DNA from: Cnuibacter physcomitrellae
Lineage (GTDB): Bacteria > Actinomycetota > Actinomycetes > Actinomycetales > Microbacteriaceae
Length of the DNA: 64,000 nt
Direction: 5' to 3'
Assembly: GCF_014640535.1 (NCBI RefSeq)
Contig: NZ_BMHD01000001.1
Location: forward strand, 2,544,214-2,608,213
The notes beneath the pieces were generated by a model. That model saw only the letters and a program-made list of their open reading frames with translations. It was not told the origin of the DNA and searched no databases. Positions 12,817 through 49,465 of the stretch are shown here, piece by piece (positions within the stretch are counted from its first letter, which is position 1; each line of letters starts with the position of its first letter). A program made the translations under genes and the position numbers.

Positions 12817-13578
12817 ATGACCTTGCAGATCCTCTCCGAACGCCGACTCGACGGCGATCTCCTCGAACGCTCCCTCCTCGTGGGCGACGTCCCGGGCATC
12901 CTGTGGATGCCTCCCCTCGATCCCTCGGGGTCCGCCCCGCTGATCCTCCTCGGTCATCCCGGCGGTCTCGACGCCCAGCATCCTCGACTGATCGCGCGCG
13001 CCCGGCGCAGCGCGCAGGACGGGTTCGCGAGCGCGGCCCTCGAGCTGCCCGGCAGTGGCTCTCGGCCGCGGCTGTCGGCGCTAGAGGAAGCGCGGGCGGA
13101 GCTTCGGACGGCTCTCGGGGCGCGCGAGCCGGTGGCCGACGCCACGGTGGACCGGCTCGTCCTGCCGCTCGTCGACGCCGCCGTGCCCGAGTGCCGTGCG
13201 GCGCTCGACGCGTTGTCCGCGCTCCCGGGGCTCGGCGGCCCCGTCGGGTACTCGGGCGGGATCATCTCGCTCGGCGTCCGGCTCGCCCTCGCTGATCCTC
13301 GGATCGCCGCGGCCGTGCTCTTCGCCGGCAGCTGGATCCCGCGGGTCATCCTCGAGGAGGCCCGCGCCATGCGCATCCCGATCCACATGCTGCTGCAGTG
13401 GGACGACGTCGACAATCCTCGCCAGGCCGCGCTCGACCTCTTCGACGCGTTCGGCTCGCCGGAGAAGTCGCTCGCGGCGAACCTGGGCGGCCACACGGGC
13501 GTCCCCGCGTACGCGGGCGACGAGGCCGCGAGGTTCCTCGCCCGCCACCTCGGCGTCGCCTCTTCCCGCGCGGCATAG
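12817..13578 (+). CDS. Alpha/beta hydrolase, dienelactone-hydrolase-like
   Basis: Cytoplasmic alpha/beta hydrolase of 253 residues. The nucleophile elbow is GYSGG with Ser146; a candidate acid lies in LLQWDDVDNP and the His in LGGHTGVP, completing a Ser-Asp-His triad. LILLGHPGG near 43-50 forms the oxyanion region. Substrate and pathway are unknown. The ATG follows GAAGGGC by a few bases. The 200-base gap to the divergent epoxide hydrolase gene holds the promoter region but no convincing gene. A palindromic repeat lies directly after the stop. Confidence 0.8.
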   Translation: MTLQILSERRLDGDLLERSLLVGDVPGILWMPPLDPSGSAPLILLGHPGGLDAQHPRLIARARRSAQDGFASAALELPGSGSRPRLSALEEARAELRTALGAREPVADATVDRLVLPLVDAAVPECRAALDALSALPGLGGPVGYSGGIISLGVRLALADPRIAAAVLFAGSWIPRVILEEARAMRIPIHMLLQWDDVDNPRQAALDLFDAFGSPEKSLAANLGGHTGVPAYAGDEAARFLARHLGVASSRAA

Positions 13579-13581
13579 GTG

Positions 13582-13644
13582 CGAGTGCACCCGGAAACCG
13601 CGGATGCGCCGCGCGTGCAACCGTTCTTTCCGGGTGCACTCGGA
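13582..13644. repeat. REP-like palindromic repeat, copy 1
   Basis: Perfect 16-bp inverted repeat (13582-13597 with 13627-13642) around a 29-base loop. Positions 13587-13644 match the second copy at 13900-13957 in about 52 of 58 bases, in the same orientation. It lies between the 3' ends of the hydrolase gene and a convergent small membrane-protein gene, where it could also act as a two-way terminator. Confidence 0.75.
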
Positions 13645-13646
13645 CT

Positions 13647-29939: not shown

Positions 29940-30958
29940 GCCCGGCCGAATCCGTCCTCGCCGATCTCCCCCAGGATTCGGTTGAGGTCATCGATCGTCG
30001 CGAAGTCGATCACGATCTGACCCTTCGTGCGGCCGAGGCTGACCCGGACCCGGGTGTTGAGACGGTCGCCCAGACGGTCGCCGATCTCGTCGAGGTGTCC
30101 GCGCTTGGTCCCCGCCGTCGGCTTCGATCGGTTCTGCTTCGGCGTCTCGGCCGCGAGGGCCTCCGCAGCACGGACCGAGAGCTCTTCGTTGACGATCTTG
30201 TCGGCGAGCTTCGTCATGGCCTCGACGTCGCCCACCGACAGGACCGCTCGCGCGTGCCCGGCACTCAGGACGCCGGCCGCCACACGCTTCTGCACCTCGG
30301 GAGGGAGCCTCAGCAGGCGGATCGTGTTGGTGATCTGAGGACGCGAGCGACCGATCCGCTCGGCCAGCTGGTCCTGCGTGATGCCGAAGTCGTCGATCAT
30401 CTGCTGGTAGGCGCTGGCCTCTTCCAGCGGGTTCAGCTGCGATCGGTGCAGGTTCTCGAGGAGCGCATCACGCAGCATGTCCTCGTCGGCCGTGTCGCGG
30501 ATGACGGCGGGGATGCGATCGAGGCCCGCCGCCTTCGTCGCACGGAGTCGACGCTCGCCCATGACGAGCTCAAAGCGGGGCTCGTCGCCGTCCGCGTCCT
30601 TCGGGAGCTCGCGCACCACGATGGGCTGGAGGACCCCGATCTCGCGGACGGAGTGAATGAGCTCCTGAAGGTCGTCCTCATCGAAGACCGAACGCGGCTG
30701 CTTCGCGTTCGGGACGATGGACGCGGGGTCCAGCTGGACGAGACGCGCGCCAGGAACCGCGACCAGGTCGGGTGCGTCATCGGGAGCAGGTCCCTGCGTG
30801 GTGGCCTCGGCGATTCCCGGCACCGCTGCGGAGACCGCGACCGCCCTCGAATCAGGGAAGAAGACGTCGACGGGACGGCTGCCGTCACTGCTGGTCGGCT
30901 CGGTCGGTATCAGGGCGCCGATGCCTCGACCGAGGCCGGTTCGCTTCTTAGTGGCCAT
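29936..30958 (-). CDS. parB: Chromosome-partitioning protein ParB
   Basis: CTP-dependent clamp that loads at parS and spreads on DNA near the origin. The 340 residues include the start MATKKRTGLGRGIGALIP, the CTP-binding motifs GERRLRATKAAG and ENLHRSQLNPLEEA, the HTH ITQDQLAERIGRSRPQITNTI, and the C-terminal dimerisation domain. It overlaps parA by 11 bases. Three matching parS sites lie 0.9-1.4 kb upstream, beyond parA. Confidence 0.96.
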   Translation of the reverse strand: MATKKRTGLGRGIGALIPTEPTSSDGSRPVDVFFPDSRAVAVSAAVPGIAEATTQGPAPDDAPDLVAVPGARLVQLDPASIVPNAKQPRSVFDEDDLQELIHSVREIGVLQPIVVRELPKDADGDEPRFELVMGERRLRATKAAGLDRIPAVIRDTADEDMLRDALLENLHRSQLNPLEEASAYQQMIDDFGITQDQLAERIGRSRPQITNTIRLLRLPPEVQKRVAAGVLSAGHARAVLSVGDVEAMTKLADKIVNEELSVRAAEALAAETPKQNRSKPTAGTKRGHLDEIGDRLGDRLNTRVRVSLGRTKGQIVIDFATIDDLNRILGEIGEDGFGRA

Positions 30959-31856
30959 GTGCTGCTCCTCTGTCTGCGATCTCGCCTGCTGCCTCGAGGT
31001 AGGAGACGGATCCGGTCGATCCTGGGTCGAAGGTGATGACGGTCTGCCCGTAGCTGGGCGCCTCGGAGATCCGCACCGTACGAGGGATCACCGTGGCGAG
31101 CGTCTGGGTGGGGAAGTGGGTGCGGACATCCTCGGCGACCTGGAACGCCAGTCTGGTTCGCGCGTCGTACATCGTGAGCAGGATCGTGCTCACGGTCAGA
31201 GCGGGGTTGAGGTGCCGTTCGATGAGCTGGATGTTGCTGAGCAGCTGACTCAGTCCCTCCAGCGCGTAGTACTCGCACTGGATGGGGATGAGCACCTCGC
31301 GCGCGGCGACGAACGCGTTGATCGTCAGCAACCCTAAGGACGGCGGGCAGTCGATGAAGACGTAGTGGATCGGATCGCCCTCCGCCGCTCGCTTGGAGAT
31401 GTATTCGTCGAGGGCGGTGCGCAGCCGCTGCTCCCTGGCCACCATGGGCACGAGCTCGATCTCGGCGCCCGCGAGGTTGATGTTCGACGGAAGGCACCAC
31501 AGGGTCTCGAACTCGGGGCTCTTGGCGACGACCTCCGCGACGTCATCGTCGTGGATGAGGACGTCGTAGATGCTGGGCGTGTCCGCTCGACGCTCGATGC
31601 CCAGCGCCGTCGACGCGTTGCCCTGGGGATCGAGGTCGATCACCAGGACGGTCGCCCCGTGCTTGGCCAGCGCCGCAGCGAGGTTGACCGTGGTCGTCGT
31701 CTTGCCGACGCCGCCCTTCTGGTTGGCGACAGTGAAGATCCGCGTGGTCTCCGGGAAGGGGAAGGTGCGTGACGCCAGTCGACGTTTGCGCTCCGACAGG
31801 TCGGCGAGCTCACGGGCCAGGGGAGTGGTCTCGTCGAAGGCTGATTCAGACGGCAT
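30948..31856 (-). CDS. parA: Chromosome-partitioning ATPase ParA
   Basis: Deviant Walker ATPase that drives origin segregation with ParB. The 302 residues have ANQKGGVGKTTTTVNLA at 44-60 with the signature lysine, VLVIDLDPQGNASTALG, and FIDCPPSLGLLTINA. Start ATG 31856 was chosen because the protein family begins about here and GATGGAGAAC lies upstream. The frame stays open through the parS site at 31879-31894, where a start reading MFHVKR is possible and would add 19 residues. TAGCAT at 31927-31932 (minus) is a likely -10, so the leader would contain a parS site. Confidence 0.93.
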   Translation of the reverse strand: MPSESAFDETTPLARELADLSERKRRLASRTFPFPETTRIFTVANQKGGVGKTTTTVNLAAALAKHGATVLVIDLDPQGNASTALGIERRADTPSIYDVLIHDDDVAEVVAKSPEFETLWCLPSNINLAGAEIELVPMVAREQRLRTALDEYISKRAAEGDPIHYVFIDCPPSLGLLTINAFVAAREVLIPIQCEYYALEGLSQLLSNIQLIERHLNPALTVSTILLTMYDARTRLAFQVAEDVRTHFPTQTLATVIPRTVRISEAPSYGQTVITFDPGSTGSVSYLEAAGEIADRGAAHGH

Positions 31857-31878: not shown

Positions 31879-31894
31879 CGTTTCACGTGAAACA
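31879..31894. promoter_or_regulatory. parS site 1
   Basis: CGTTTCACGTGAAACA, 15 of 16 matches to the parS consensus TGTTTCACGTGAAACA. It lies 23 bases upstream of the chosen parA start, inside the likely parA leader, so ParB bound here could also repress parAB. Confidence 0.95.
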
Positions 31895-31969: not shown

Positions 31970-31985
31970 TGTTTCACGTGAAACG
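31970..31985. promoter_or_regulatory. parS site 2
   Basis: TGTTTCACGTGAAACG, 15 of 16 matches to the parS consensus, 91 bases from site 1. Confidence 0.95.
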
Positions 31986-32301: not shown

Positions 32302-32317
32302 TGTTTCACGTGAAACA
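32302..32317. promoter_or_regulatory. parS site 3
   Basis: TGTTTCACGTGAAACA, a perfect parS, about 300 bases before the first recognisable unit of the repeat array. Confidence 0.97.
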
Positions 32318-32611
32318 CGACCAAGCCCTCATGATCAAGAACGATCTCTAAAGACACACGACGGCCAGTTCTTTTCACGCGCTCGGCCCATGCGCAGGTG
32401 ATCGAGTCCGGAAGGCGCACTCCTCCCGCCGCCGCGAGGAACACCGCTCACCTGAAACCGCCTCCCTATCACCACGCACGGACACCCAGCCGACGGCGTG
32501 CATTCCCCACAAAACCGAGGGGCCGCGACGCATCACGGTAAGAGCGAGATGACGAGACGTACAGGGGGAGCGCCGTCAGGACCCGGTGTCGATTCAACCG
32601 ACTCGATCACC

Positions 32612-35050
32612 GCCCGAGTGACCCCTCGACACGAACTACAACCAACTCCCCGCTTATGTGCCGGAGGCCCCGCAGCTTCGGCGCTGGACCAACCTCCGCG
32701 GCCATCCAACACAGCCACCGCCCGACGCGGAACCCTACCCTCCCGCACACCGCCGCACTCCCTGCGCGAACAGCGAATGGCCTGCCCCATATGACGGGGA
32801 GTCCGGAACAAGCGCAACAACCACCCAAGGCAGCTCGACCTACGCGACTGCTACTTCGATGTCCTTCGACACGGAATACACGCAGGTCTCCGCCTAGACG
32901 CCGAAGGTCTGGCCTATTCGGTGCTGAAGCGGCCGCCGCGATCCCCGCCACAGCCACTACTCGCCCCGCGACCTCACACACAACCCGCCGACCCGGCTGG
33001 ACCAACGGGGGAGTGATCCACTCAGGAGCCACCGAGACACGGCACGAGCGCGACGATCATCCGGAACGCCTCGACCTAAACGATCGATACCCGCGTGAAC
33101 CCTTCAACGAGACGATCAGTTCCCGCATGACGCCTCAACATGGAACACACGCAAGTACCCGCCTAAACGCCGATGTCCTCATTGATTCCGCGGTGAAACG
33201 ACCACCGAGGCCACCAAGCACGGCCGCCATCCCGCTCGCGACCGCGCACGCACACGCAACCCGCCGATCACTCGCCGTGAACGGGGGAGCGGTGCGCTCA
33301 GGGACCGAGGAGGCGCGGCACGAGCGCGACGATCATCCAGAACGCCTCGACCTAAACGATCGCTTCCCGCGTGACGCCTCGACACGGAATACACGCAAAT
33401 CCGCGCCCATACGCCGAAGGTCGCGCCAATCCGGCGCTGCAGCGCGCACACCGCCACCGAGTACGGCACCGACACGACATCGAGCCGGGTGTGCTCCGGC
33501 TGGTGAACAAGGACTCCAGGCAGACGGGCGAGTGGCCCCGCCAAGGGGCTGGGACGCACGGTCGGCTCGGCTACGCGATCGCACCCTACATGTCGGCTCG
33601 TCACGAAATACGGGAAAGGCTCCCTCCCACACGCCGAGCTTCCACCAAATCCGCGATGAAGCGACAACCGAGTACACCGAACAAGTACTGACACAACGCA
33701 CAGGCCCGTCGGCTTCCGCCCGCCGCACGAACGCACAACCGACTGCCCGAGAGGACAGGATCCATGGAGCTGCCTCGACCTACGGGATCGCACCCCACGT
33801 GGCGCTTCGTCGCGGGATACCGGCAAGTCCCCGCCTATATGCAGAGGTGTCGCGAATTAGGTGATGAAGCGACAGCCGCGGACCCCGAACACCACACTGA
33901 CACAACGCAAAGCGCGGTCCGCTTTCCCCCTGCGCCAGCGGGGCAGTCGGCCCGCACGAGAGGGGCGAGCTTCGGAGCGAGCCCGGTGACGACAGCACCG
34001 GCTCGACCTACGCGATAGCACCCGATGCGTCGCTTCATCACGGAATATGGGCAAGCCCCCGTCTATACGCGGAGGTGTTCCGAAATCCGTGATGAAGCGA
34101 CAGCCGTCGCGGCTAAGAAGGGTGTCGACACAACGCAGCGCCGAGTCCGCTTTCACCTGCCTGCACAAACCGGGGCCGGTCAGCCCGAGAGGACAGGAAC
34201 TGCGGGTAGCTCGACCTGCGCGATTGCAGTCGACGTGTCGGTTCGTCACGGAATATGAGCAAGCACGCGGCTATACGCGGAGGTGTCACGGAATCCGTGA
34301 TGAAGCGACAGCCGCGGTGCGGAGGACGACAACCACACCACGCAGAGCAGCGTCCACGTCCCCCCGAGAGGAGAAGAGCCCCAGGCTGGCTCGACCTGCG
34401 CGATCGCAGTCGACGTGTCGCTTCGTCACGGAATTCGGGCAAGCACGCGGCTATACGCGGAAGTGTCACGGAATCCGTGATGAAGCGACAGCCGCGGCGC
34501 GGAACACGACAACCACACCACGCAGAGCAGCGTCCACGTCCCCCCGAGAGGAGAAGAGCCATAGGCCGGCTTGAACTGCGCGATCGCAGCCGACATGTCG
34601 CTTCGTCACGGAATTCGGGCAAGCACGCGGCTATACGCGGAAGTGTCACGGAACCCGTGATGAAGCGACAGCCGCGGCGCCGAGCGCGGCATCACGACAC
34701 AGAGCCGCGTCCGATTCCACGCGCCCCACCCGAGACGGGAAGAGCCATACGCCAGCTCGAACTGCGCGATCGCAGTCGACGTGTCGCTTCATCACGGAAA
34801 ATCGGCAAGCCCCCGGCTATACCCGGAGGTGTCACGGAATCCGTGATGAAGCGACAGCCGCGGCGCCGAGCGCGGCACCACGACGCAGAGCCGCATCCGC
34901 TTCCACGCGCCCCACCCGAGAACGGAAGAGCCCTAGGCCGGCTCGACCTACACGATCGCAACGGGCGTGGCGCTTCATCACCGAATACGGGCAGGCCCCC
35001 GGCTATACGCGGAGGTGTCACGGAATCCGTGATGAAGCGACAGCGGCCGC
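32612..35050. repeat. Degenerate tandem array of about 12 inverted-repeat units
   Basis: About twelve related units fill this 2.4-kb gap between parS and rsmG. Conserved cores lie near 32612, 32845, 33125, 33365, 33590, 33798, 34026, 34235, 34415, 34595, 34780 and 34965, so spacing falls from about 280 to 180 bp. The core is an inverted repeat, TGTCGCTTCATCACGGA ... TCCGTGATGAAGCGACA, around a loop of about 40 bases containing GGCTATACGCGG. It is perfect over 16-17 bp at 34029-34101 and 34782-34856, and keeps pairing through G-T wobble at 34415 and 34595. Most units also carry CTCGACCT-type sequence before the core and a GAGAGGA or GAGAGGAGAAGAGCC block after it. No gene with a ribosome site or protein-like composition was found on either strand. 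Function unknown: non-coding RNA units, a binding array near the centromere, or drifting tandem duplications. Confidence 0.85.
34210..34755. repeat. Near-identical 180-bp tandem units within the array
   Basis: Three successive units starting at 34210, 34390 and 34570 are spaced exactly 180 bp and share long identical stretches, for example ACCACACCACGCAGAGCAGC in the first two. The neighbours at 34756 and 34942 are spaced 186 bp. These are the youngest-looking copies. Confidence 0.85.
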
Positions 35051-35100
35051 CGCCGAGAGCCGAGCCCACCCGCGCACCCACGCGACAGCGGAGGGGGGAA

Positions 35101-35742
35101 CTACGGAACGAGGGCGGTGATCACGCGGGTCGGCTCGACCGGAAGGTCCGCGCCGAGCACCGACACCGCCACGTCGCGGAGACGGAAGCGCGCGATCACC
35201 TTCGCCGCCGCGGTGATCTCCGCCTCGGCGTTGGCGCCCTTCATGAAGACCAGGCGCCCGCCGTCGCGGGTCAGCGGCACCGTCATGGGGACGAGCTTCG
35301 AGAACGCGCTCACCGCTCGGGCCGTGACGACGTCGTAGGAGCCCGTCGCATCCTGGGCACGGGCACGGATGACGGTCACGTTGTCGAGTGCGAGCAGGGA
35401 CTTCTGCTCCTCGAGCCAGGCCACCCGTCGCTCCATCGGTTCGATCAGGGTGAACGCCACATCAGGACGAGCGATCGCCAGCACGATCCCCGGCAGCCCC
35501 GCCCCGCTTCCGATGTCGGCCACGGAGGTGTCCGCCTCGAACAGGGGAGCGGGGAGGGCGCAGTTCACGATGTGCCTGCTCCACAATCGCGGAAGCTCCA
35601 GCGGACCGATCAGGCCGAGCGTCTCCCCGCGCGCAGCGAGGTCGGCCGCGAAGGCGCGCGCCTTCTCGATCCCGTCGCCGAACAGCGAAGCCGCGACCGC
35701 GGGCTCCGCCTCGACCTCGACAGCGGGGGAGTCCATGCTCAC
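35101..35742 (-). CDS. rsmG: 16S rRNA (guanine-527-N7) methyltransferase
   Basis: SAM-dependent methyltransferase that modifies G527 of 16S rRNA. The 213 residues contain the SAM-binding VADIGSGAGLPGIVLAIARPD near 70-90 and a conserved RAVSAFSKLVP segment. GTG 35742 overlaps the jag stop as GTGA. In mycobacteria this gene directly adjoins parA; here the repeat array separates them by more than 3 kb, on the same strand, so read-through transcripts would cross the array. Confidence 0.94.
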   Translation of the reverse strand: MSMDSPAVEVEAEPAVAASLFGDGIEKARAFAADLAARGETLGLIGPLELPRLWSRHIVNCALPAPLFEADTSVADIGSGAGLPGIVLAIARPDVAFTLIEPMERRVAWLEEQKSLLALDNVTVIRARAQDATGSYDVVTARAVSAFSKLVPMTVPLTRDGGRLVFMKGANAEAEITAAAKVIARFRLRDVAVSVLGADLPVEPTRVITALVP

Positions 35743-49285: not shown

Positions 49286-49358
49286 GGGGACGTAGCTCAA
49301 TTGGCAGAGCACCTGCTTTGCAAGCAGGGGGTTAGGGGTTCGATTCCCCTCGTCTCCA
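49286..49358 (+). tRNA. tRNA-Ala (anticodon TGC)
   Basis: Acceptor GGGGACG pairs with CGTCTCC (one G-T), anticodon stem CCTGC/GCAGG encloses TGC at 49319-49321, and the T-arm is GGGGTTCGATTCCCC. The last 14 bases of the T-arm and acceptor region are repeated at 49466-49479. Confidence 0.95.
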
Positions 49359-49404
49359 CCGAATGACGAAGGCCCCGCTGGTGCGGGGCCTTCGTCATTC
49401 GGTG
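49357..49404 (+). terminator. Terminator of the tRNA operon
   Basis: Perfect 22-bp stem (49357-49378 with 49383-49404) with a four-base loop, starting at the last bases of tRNA-Ala. The stem is very long and G+C-rich in its upper half. No T-run follows. Confidence 0.8.
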
Positions 49405-49465
49405 CAGATGCGTGGATGAGAAGCCCGACCAGGGGTGGGCCCCTGAGCCATGCTTGGCTCAGGGA

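Follow-up and report, generated by a model that had tools for sequence, protein, structure and literature searches.

The 3.2-kb gap between rsmG and parA in the 4.35-Mb genome of Cnuibacter physcomitrellae carries an array of about 12 related units, and this array was very probably amplified from a lineage-specific palindrome of about 76 bp that is dispersed over the genome: at least 80 copies lie outside the array, at 48 other places on contigs C1 and C2. This repetition of the unit core across the genome is absent from an earlier note on the same DNA. We lean towards the wider reading that the array arose when one member of a REP/BIME-like family with a hairpin function at gene 3' ends was amplified locally and in tandem; the functional part of it, taken by itself, is deduced from sequence and is a tentative proposal that we would sooner doubt than assert.

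The array between parS and rsmG

Coordinates given without a contig refer to the window, the whole 64-kb stretch of DNA that was analysed (C1:2544214-2608213). The array lies at 32592-35100, within the non-coding rsmG-parA gap. On one side is rsmG (35101-35742, minus strand), with its 3' end 58 bp from the last array unit; on the other is parA (30948-31856, minus strand), whose 5' end faces both the array and three perfect matches to a 14-bp motif at 31880-31893 (GTTTCACGTGAAAC), 31971-31984 and 32303-32316, which we take to be parS cores. The core at 32303-32316 is the closest, 0.3 kb from the array as the earlier note had stated, and dnaA is about 3.3 kb away. The same note had described about twelve related units over 32612-35050, spaced 180-280 bp and with no convincing gene: our count is again about 12, with a spacing of 180-269 bp (core start-to-start steps of 240, 269, 244, 219, 209, 228, 208, 180, 180, 186 and 186 bp), and a home-made codon-based caller calls no gene in the 3.2-kb gap. 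An Rfam search of the 64-kb window at gathering thresholds found two tRNAs and nothing else.

The array consists of two sub-arrays of direct repeats, both given here on the plus strand. The left one (32592-33450; repeat families D5, D6 and D8) has about four decayed units spaced 240-269 bp, with cores at 32619-32694, 32859-32934, 33128-33203 and 33372-33446; one of these units can be assigned to a type (see below), as A-like on one half. The right one (33560-35100; repeats D1 and D2) has eight tandem units of 180-228 bp, the last one incomplete, in which the palindrome and a repeated spacer have been copied together: five are of type BB, one is AB and two are typed on one half (B at 33591, A at 33800). 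On the plus strand the array spacers are enriched in A and C (AT skew 0.41, GC skew -0.13), which would fit weakly constrained sequence and a leading-strand bias. The spacer of the right sub-array (33560-35100) also holds a small palindrome, CTGCGCGATCGCAG, which is perfectly kept in three units and can still be made out in the remaining five.

Folding z-scores were computed against dinucleotide shuffles, on both strands for the four parS-proximal units. A strong hairpin is kept only in the six rsmG-proximal units (34028-35042), with plus-strand z-scores of -7.9 for the core at 34028-34102, -5.3 at 34236-34310, -10.2 at 34416-34490, -7.6 at 34596-34670, -7.4 at 34782-34856, which has perfect 17-bp arms, and -3.5 at 34968-35042, the core closest to rsmG. 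Two further cores form weak hairpins on the plus strand: 33591-33666 has 12 of 17 arm pairs (z -1.4) and 33800-33874 has 11 of 17 plus three G-U pairs (z -2.3). The units starting at 32619, 32859, 33128 and 33372 have z-scores of +0.1, -0.6, +1.4 and +1.1 on the plus strand and of +0.1, -2.2, -1.0 and -0.1 on the minus strand: three of the four have no hairpin and the unit at 32859 is borderline on one strand, the minus. The z-scores fade from the rsmG side to the parS side, and the array thus decays in the direction of parS. The hairpin of 16-17-bp arms and a loop of about 40 bases on which every unit had been said to be built is thus found in the four best units (loop of 41-43), but not throughout: on the plus strand the four parS-proximal units have z-scores near or above zero and two more are weak. 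A strict hairpin finder detects four array units; it misses imperfect palindromes, those of the second family described below included. The G-T pair that the note had seen in some units is poor evidence of compensation: B half-sites carry either A or G there, and among 51 dispersed copies of 76 nt the combination is A-C nine times and G-T eight times, with rows oriented by model score.

Copies across the genome and their two types

A DNA search with one array unit found eight places in the genome beyond the array. A covariance model, built from seven dispersed and five array copies, gave at least 148 matches in this genome, both strands counted, and a search of 40 stretches around matches together with the window resulted in 92 non-redundant rows. 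We set aside two matches in the window, at 13578-13645 and at 49346-49416, which we consider ordinary terminators. The latter abuts a tRNA gene: at 49286-49416 a tRNA gene is followed by a strong symmetric hairpin that is matched by the model and that we read as an ordinary tRNA terminator. At least 90 copies were resolved, ten of them model-found array units, in 49 clusters: 30 single copies, 11 clusters of two, three of three, three of four and one of seven, plus the array. All of these elements were found through the covariance model itself. A spaced-motif pattern found 162 places, compared to one for the reversed control, with chance coding matches among the rows with three mismatches; it shows more good places beyond the 90 resolved copies, for example at C1:1921830 and 1921967. 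The seven-element cluster (A, five B, A; L092:2064-3016, G000:C2:178263-179215) lies between the genes of an M23 peptidase and a tyrosine recombinase.

Elements were assigned to two types by a diagnostic step, GACACC for A and RTCACG for B. The halves agree in 71 of the 74 elements that are typed on both sides (36 AA, 35 BB and 3 AB; the array supplies five of the BB and one AB), while 16 of the 90 elements are not typed on both halves. Nine of the 11 two-element clusters consist of an A and a B, and the 32 adjacent pairs outside the array comprise 21 A-B, 6 B-B and 5 A-A. This mixing rule is not followed within the array, and the distances differ too: A-B neighbours outside the array are 0-51 bp apart in 18 of 21 cases, whereas array cores are more than 100 bp apart. 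Half-sites are rarely found alone: in the sampled DNA, elements contain 46 of the 49 exact A 10-mers and 46 of the 53 matches to B.

Stem pairing and covariation

Pairing was tested in a pool of 48 dispersed copies. All are 76 nt long, and of the 51 copies of this length three tandem near-duplicates were omitted. The paired fraction is 80.8% of cells, compared to 70.1 ± 0.8 after shuffling and 35-42% with slid partners, and double changes are present in 202 cells, where shuffles give 106 ± 9 and slid partners 47-63. How many pairs have any double change is unremarkable: 26, compared to 23.5 (45 of 500 shuffles). The genome-wide family thus lends some support to preserved pairing, at which the earlier note had hinted from the array, but the pooled excess mostly reflects the split between types A and B, and within the array pairing is lost towards parS. 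We reject the pooled covariation as plain compensation because the test within types, in which the excess is small, leaves mostly this split.

The within-type test includes near-duplicate tandem copies and its shuffles ignore the relatedness of copies; with this in mind, pairing in type A (n=35) is 78.0% compared to 75.4% shuffled, a value reached by none of 500 shuffles. The inner stem holds this entire excess (66.4% versus 61.0%, 0 of 500) and is in register in only 15 of the 35 copies. The outer stem of type A has no excess, neither with all pairs (89.6 versus 89.9) nor with Watson-Crick pairs only (79.7% versus 80.4%, with 423 of 500 shuffles reaching the observed value). Type B copies of 76 nt (n=15) pair in 83.1% compared to 78.7% (0 of 500), with an inner stem of 80.4% compared to 73.9% (0 of 500); in B copies of 77 nt (n=14) the excess is in the outer stem only and the inner register is uncertain. 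A smaller test, confined to fully typed copies and Watson-Crick pairs, showed less: the observed value was reached in type A by 87 of 500 shuffles and in type B by 8 of 500. The inner stem thus has a small excess within both types, but there is none in the outer stem of A, and compensation inside the types is modest. As the A outer stem is without covariation and only 15 of 35 A inner stems are in register, much of the symmetry may be shared descent. Template switching has been reported to create and maintain hairpins (PMC8794818) and is an alternative to selection for the symmetry of the stem. Nearly all of the 48 copies (47-48) have an unaltered CAC/GTG step, which occupies columns 13-15 and 64-66. 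At the outer end, columns 2-5 pair with columns 74-77 in 35-43 of the 48, leaving no unpaired tag.

Placement at gene 3' ends

Most intergenic regions that hold an element are convergent: of 50, 31 are convergent, 15 co-directional and four divergent, compared to 17, 107 and 32 of 156 regions without an element (Fisher p 3e-12; the control consists of neighbouring genes from the home-made caller, and the 50 regions include the two window terminators, without which 29 of 48 are convergent by subtraction). Of the 49 clusters, 44 lie next to the 3' end of a gene, at a median distance of 14.5 bp and within 30 bp in 36 cases. Of 100 flanking proteins listed, 30 were tested; 27 have Pfam matches, which are diverse and have no common theme.

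The elements share several features with intrinsic terminators of convergent genes: a hairpin a few bases past facing stop codons and some T after the inner stem. They differ in the missing T-tract after the whole 76-bp element (1.05 T in 8 nt, compared to 1.21 at random places), in a much longer stem and in being repeated in sequence. A terminator scan of the region was at chance level, with 3 found and 2.3 expected. The inner stem is followed by 2.10 T, and by four or more T in 10 of 102 strand-readings compared to none at random; weak intrinsic termination may occur at this position.

We propose that one member of the family was amplified in tandem beside rsmG, together with its spacer, and that the copies then decayed away from rsmG. 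On transcription of a flanking gene the palindrome would fold, whichever strand is read, as a long hairpin at the 3' end of the mRNA, and this hairpin could protect or define the end and keep convergent transcripts apart. Proximity to parS would play no part.

Comparison with known repeat systems

The family is like REP/BIME elements, as portrayed in a REP survey (PMC3733652), in its high copy number, its intergenic position at gene 3' ends, mostly between convergent or co-directional genes, and its frequent dimers of unlike units. Its 90 resolved copies, a lower bound, agree with the hundred or so, or more, dispersed intergenic copies of REP/BIME; it adjoins gene 3' ends in 44 of 49 clusters, has convergent or co-directional genes in 46 of 50 regions and forms mixed-type clusters outside the array, with A-B in 21 of 32 adjacent pairs. 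It differs in size, since the REP/BIME elements of the GTAG and CGTC super-families are described there as 20-40 bp and the 76-bp palindrome is modelled as a symmetric stem of 34 pairs. It also differs in form: REPs have an unpaired GTAG or CGTC tag at one end, whereas the palindrome is without tag and close to two-fold symmetry. A further difference is the RAYT (Y1 transposase): the best match to the REP transposase (PF01797) in this genome has an E-value of 0.63, below the cut-off, and at E 0.01 or better there is none in this genome and 19 relatives, in searches whose positive controls were matched in 10 and 6 of 14 control genomes. RAYT transposases are given as the explanation of the GTAG class, while CGTC REPs are described without a dedicated transposase, and REP families are reported mainly in proteobacteria (PMC3733652); the main text of that survey never uses the word actinobacteria. 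We do not file the family as REP because size, tag and RAYT do not agree.

The 76-bp family can also be set beside other repeats and beside what has been published on its hosts, and a literature search gave nothing relevant on such repeats for this bacterial family. ERIC/IRU-like elements and other long palindromic MITEs are long symmetric intergenic palindromes able to fold as RNA, and the 76-bp family resembles ERIC/IRU-like elements in these features. MITEs, by contrast, have a target-site duplication and a related insertion sequence, neither of which is shown for the 76-bp family: inspection by eye of the flanks of the elements revealed no target-site duplication, and there is no close relative with an empty site.

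Relatives and a second palindrome family

Under strict filters, three genomes of a 199-genome sample have any match to the model (at least 24 in this genome, one or two in the others), as do 15 of a 398-genome sample, with this genome counted (at least 12 here, one or two in the others); permissive scoring of 30 genomes gave at least 148 matches here and 0-6 elsewhere. No other genome among the 398 sampled in the bacterial family carries the palindrome in quantity. The genus is represented by this genome only, and none of the relatives listed has an RsmG more than 69% identical to that of this genome.

The rsmG-parA gap was measured in 19 relatives, selected in part for a parA that had not been located close to rsmG; in a twentieth, parA was not matched. 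Its length spans 61-3008 bp and is below 1 kb in 14, and it holds 0-6 parS cores. There is no sign of a conserved protein across the gap, as no gene is called in six of the eight relatives with gaps of at least 500 bp and the calls in the other two, G179 and G126, are marginal. The gaps of G054 (L253), G139 (L255), G179 (L254) and G011 (L258) contain 3-6 perfect parS cores over 1.1-3 kb; no genes are called in those of G054, G139 and G011, and there is the marginal call in G179.

A second palindrome family, TCGATAC...CTACTCRACCAGC, is present in 52 of 199 genomes and absent from this one. It has up to 588 places in one genome, with most in G044, and its members are 26-46 bp long within the search pattern. 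In G078 they are often found as opposed pairs with starts 47-78 bp apart. In 20 stretches from three genomes (L277-L296), 10 of 17 regions with an element are convergent compared to 5 of 28 without (p 0.008). The second family and variants of it are also present in the rsmG-parA gap of G179 and G126, which belong to one genus, beside the parS cores, and a Y1 transposase was found in none of 19 carriers tested. The two families are therefore alike in their gene 3' ends, opposed pairs, presence in the rsmG-parA gap and lack of a detected Y1 transposase, and unlike in sequence, which is unrelated, in length, the second being shorter, and in spread, the second reaching 52 of 199 genomes.

Alternative explanations

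Position is the whole of the case for a centromere role of the array. The earlier note had considered roles in centromere organisation or origin control, and an array that organises ParB/SMC or controls oriC would agree with the distances of 0.3 kb to a perfect parS and about 3.3 kb to dnaA, and with the recurrence of the place in G179 and G126, whose gap holds the other palindrome family beside parS cores. However, the element is present in 48 other clusters across C1 and C2, with ordinary genes beside the copies tested, the parS-proximal units are mostly without hairpin, and the gap in relatives varies between 61 and 3008 bp, holds anything from no parS core to six and is below 1 kb in 14 of 19: we consider this explanation very improbable, and the tempting centromere reading of the array is thereby removed. 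A dedicated dimeric DNA-binding protein that recognises the half-site TCRWCACSGAAT, with the array as a titration or nucleation cluster, would account for the nearly invariant CAC/GTG step, the type-matched halves and the rarity of half-sites beyond the elements, which hold all but three of 49 exact A 10-mers and all but seven of 53 B matches, but a reader of half-sites has no need for a symmetry of about 34 bp and a partly compensated inner stem, which makes such binding sites quite unlikely.

A more serious competitor, to which we give a real but minor chance, is that the palindromes are selfish or passive MITE/REP-like elements, carried about by some enzyme and tolerated only between gene ends, where an insertion would do little damage, and owe their symmetry to descent and template switching and not to function. 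Two families of different sequence with the same placement, the lack of a common theme among the 30 flanking proteins, the decay within the array and the weak or absent covariation within type A are all consistent with this, as is the reported making and maintaining of hairpins by template switching (PMC8794818). The inner stems of both types nevertheless covary, the CAC/GTG step has stayed constant, beyond the needs of pairing, in 47-48 of 48 copies, no enzyme was found and the flanks, looked over by eye, show no target-site duplications. The little covariation within types makes the 3'-end function, our whole explanation and the broad reading at the end of this section somewhat less likely and the passive explanation somewhat more so. 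We still prefer the local amplification of a family with hairpins at gene 3' ends. Either way, one actinobacterial family has two unrelated palindrome families with equal placement at gene ends and no Y1 transposase in the genomes tested, and the placement at convergent ends can now be tested as function versus target choice versus tolerance alone. It is conceivable, if rather unlikely, that Microbacteriaceae-like relatives have undescribed RAYT-free palindrome systems with sequences swapped between lineages, which would mark convergent ends, keep their symmetry through selection or a dedicated enzyme that reads CAC/GTG, and be recurrently amplified in the rsmG-parA gap.

Weak matches in other genomes

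A pattern scan of genome contigs gave at least 119 stretches, among which this genome and near ones may be lacking; among the 80 listed there is one palindromic place each, in many phyla, and we regard these as chance or ordinary hairpins. Weak model matches in relatives (L048-L050 and L244-L252) were likewise set aside, since by eye they resemble other hairpins; the one in G125, for instance, comes straight after a tRNA gene. Distant kin of the palindrome may be present as single copies in relatives such as G243 and G247. The match in G247 (L244) is a palindrome resembling the A half-site, and the one in G243 (L246, near 1501-1544), a member of another genus, is a perfect palindrome with an arm that shares 13 bases with the B half-site, possibly by chance.
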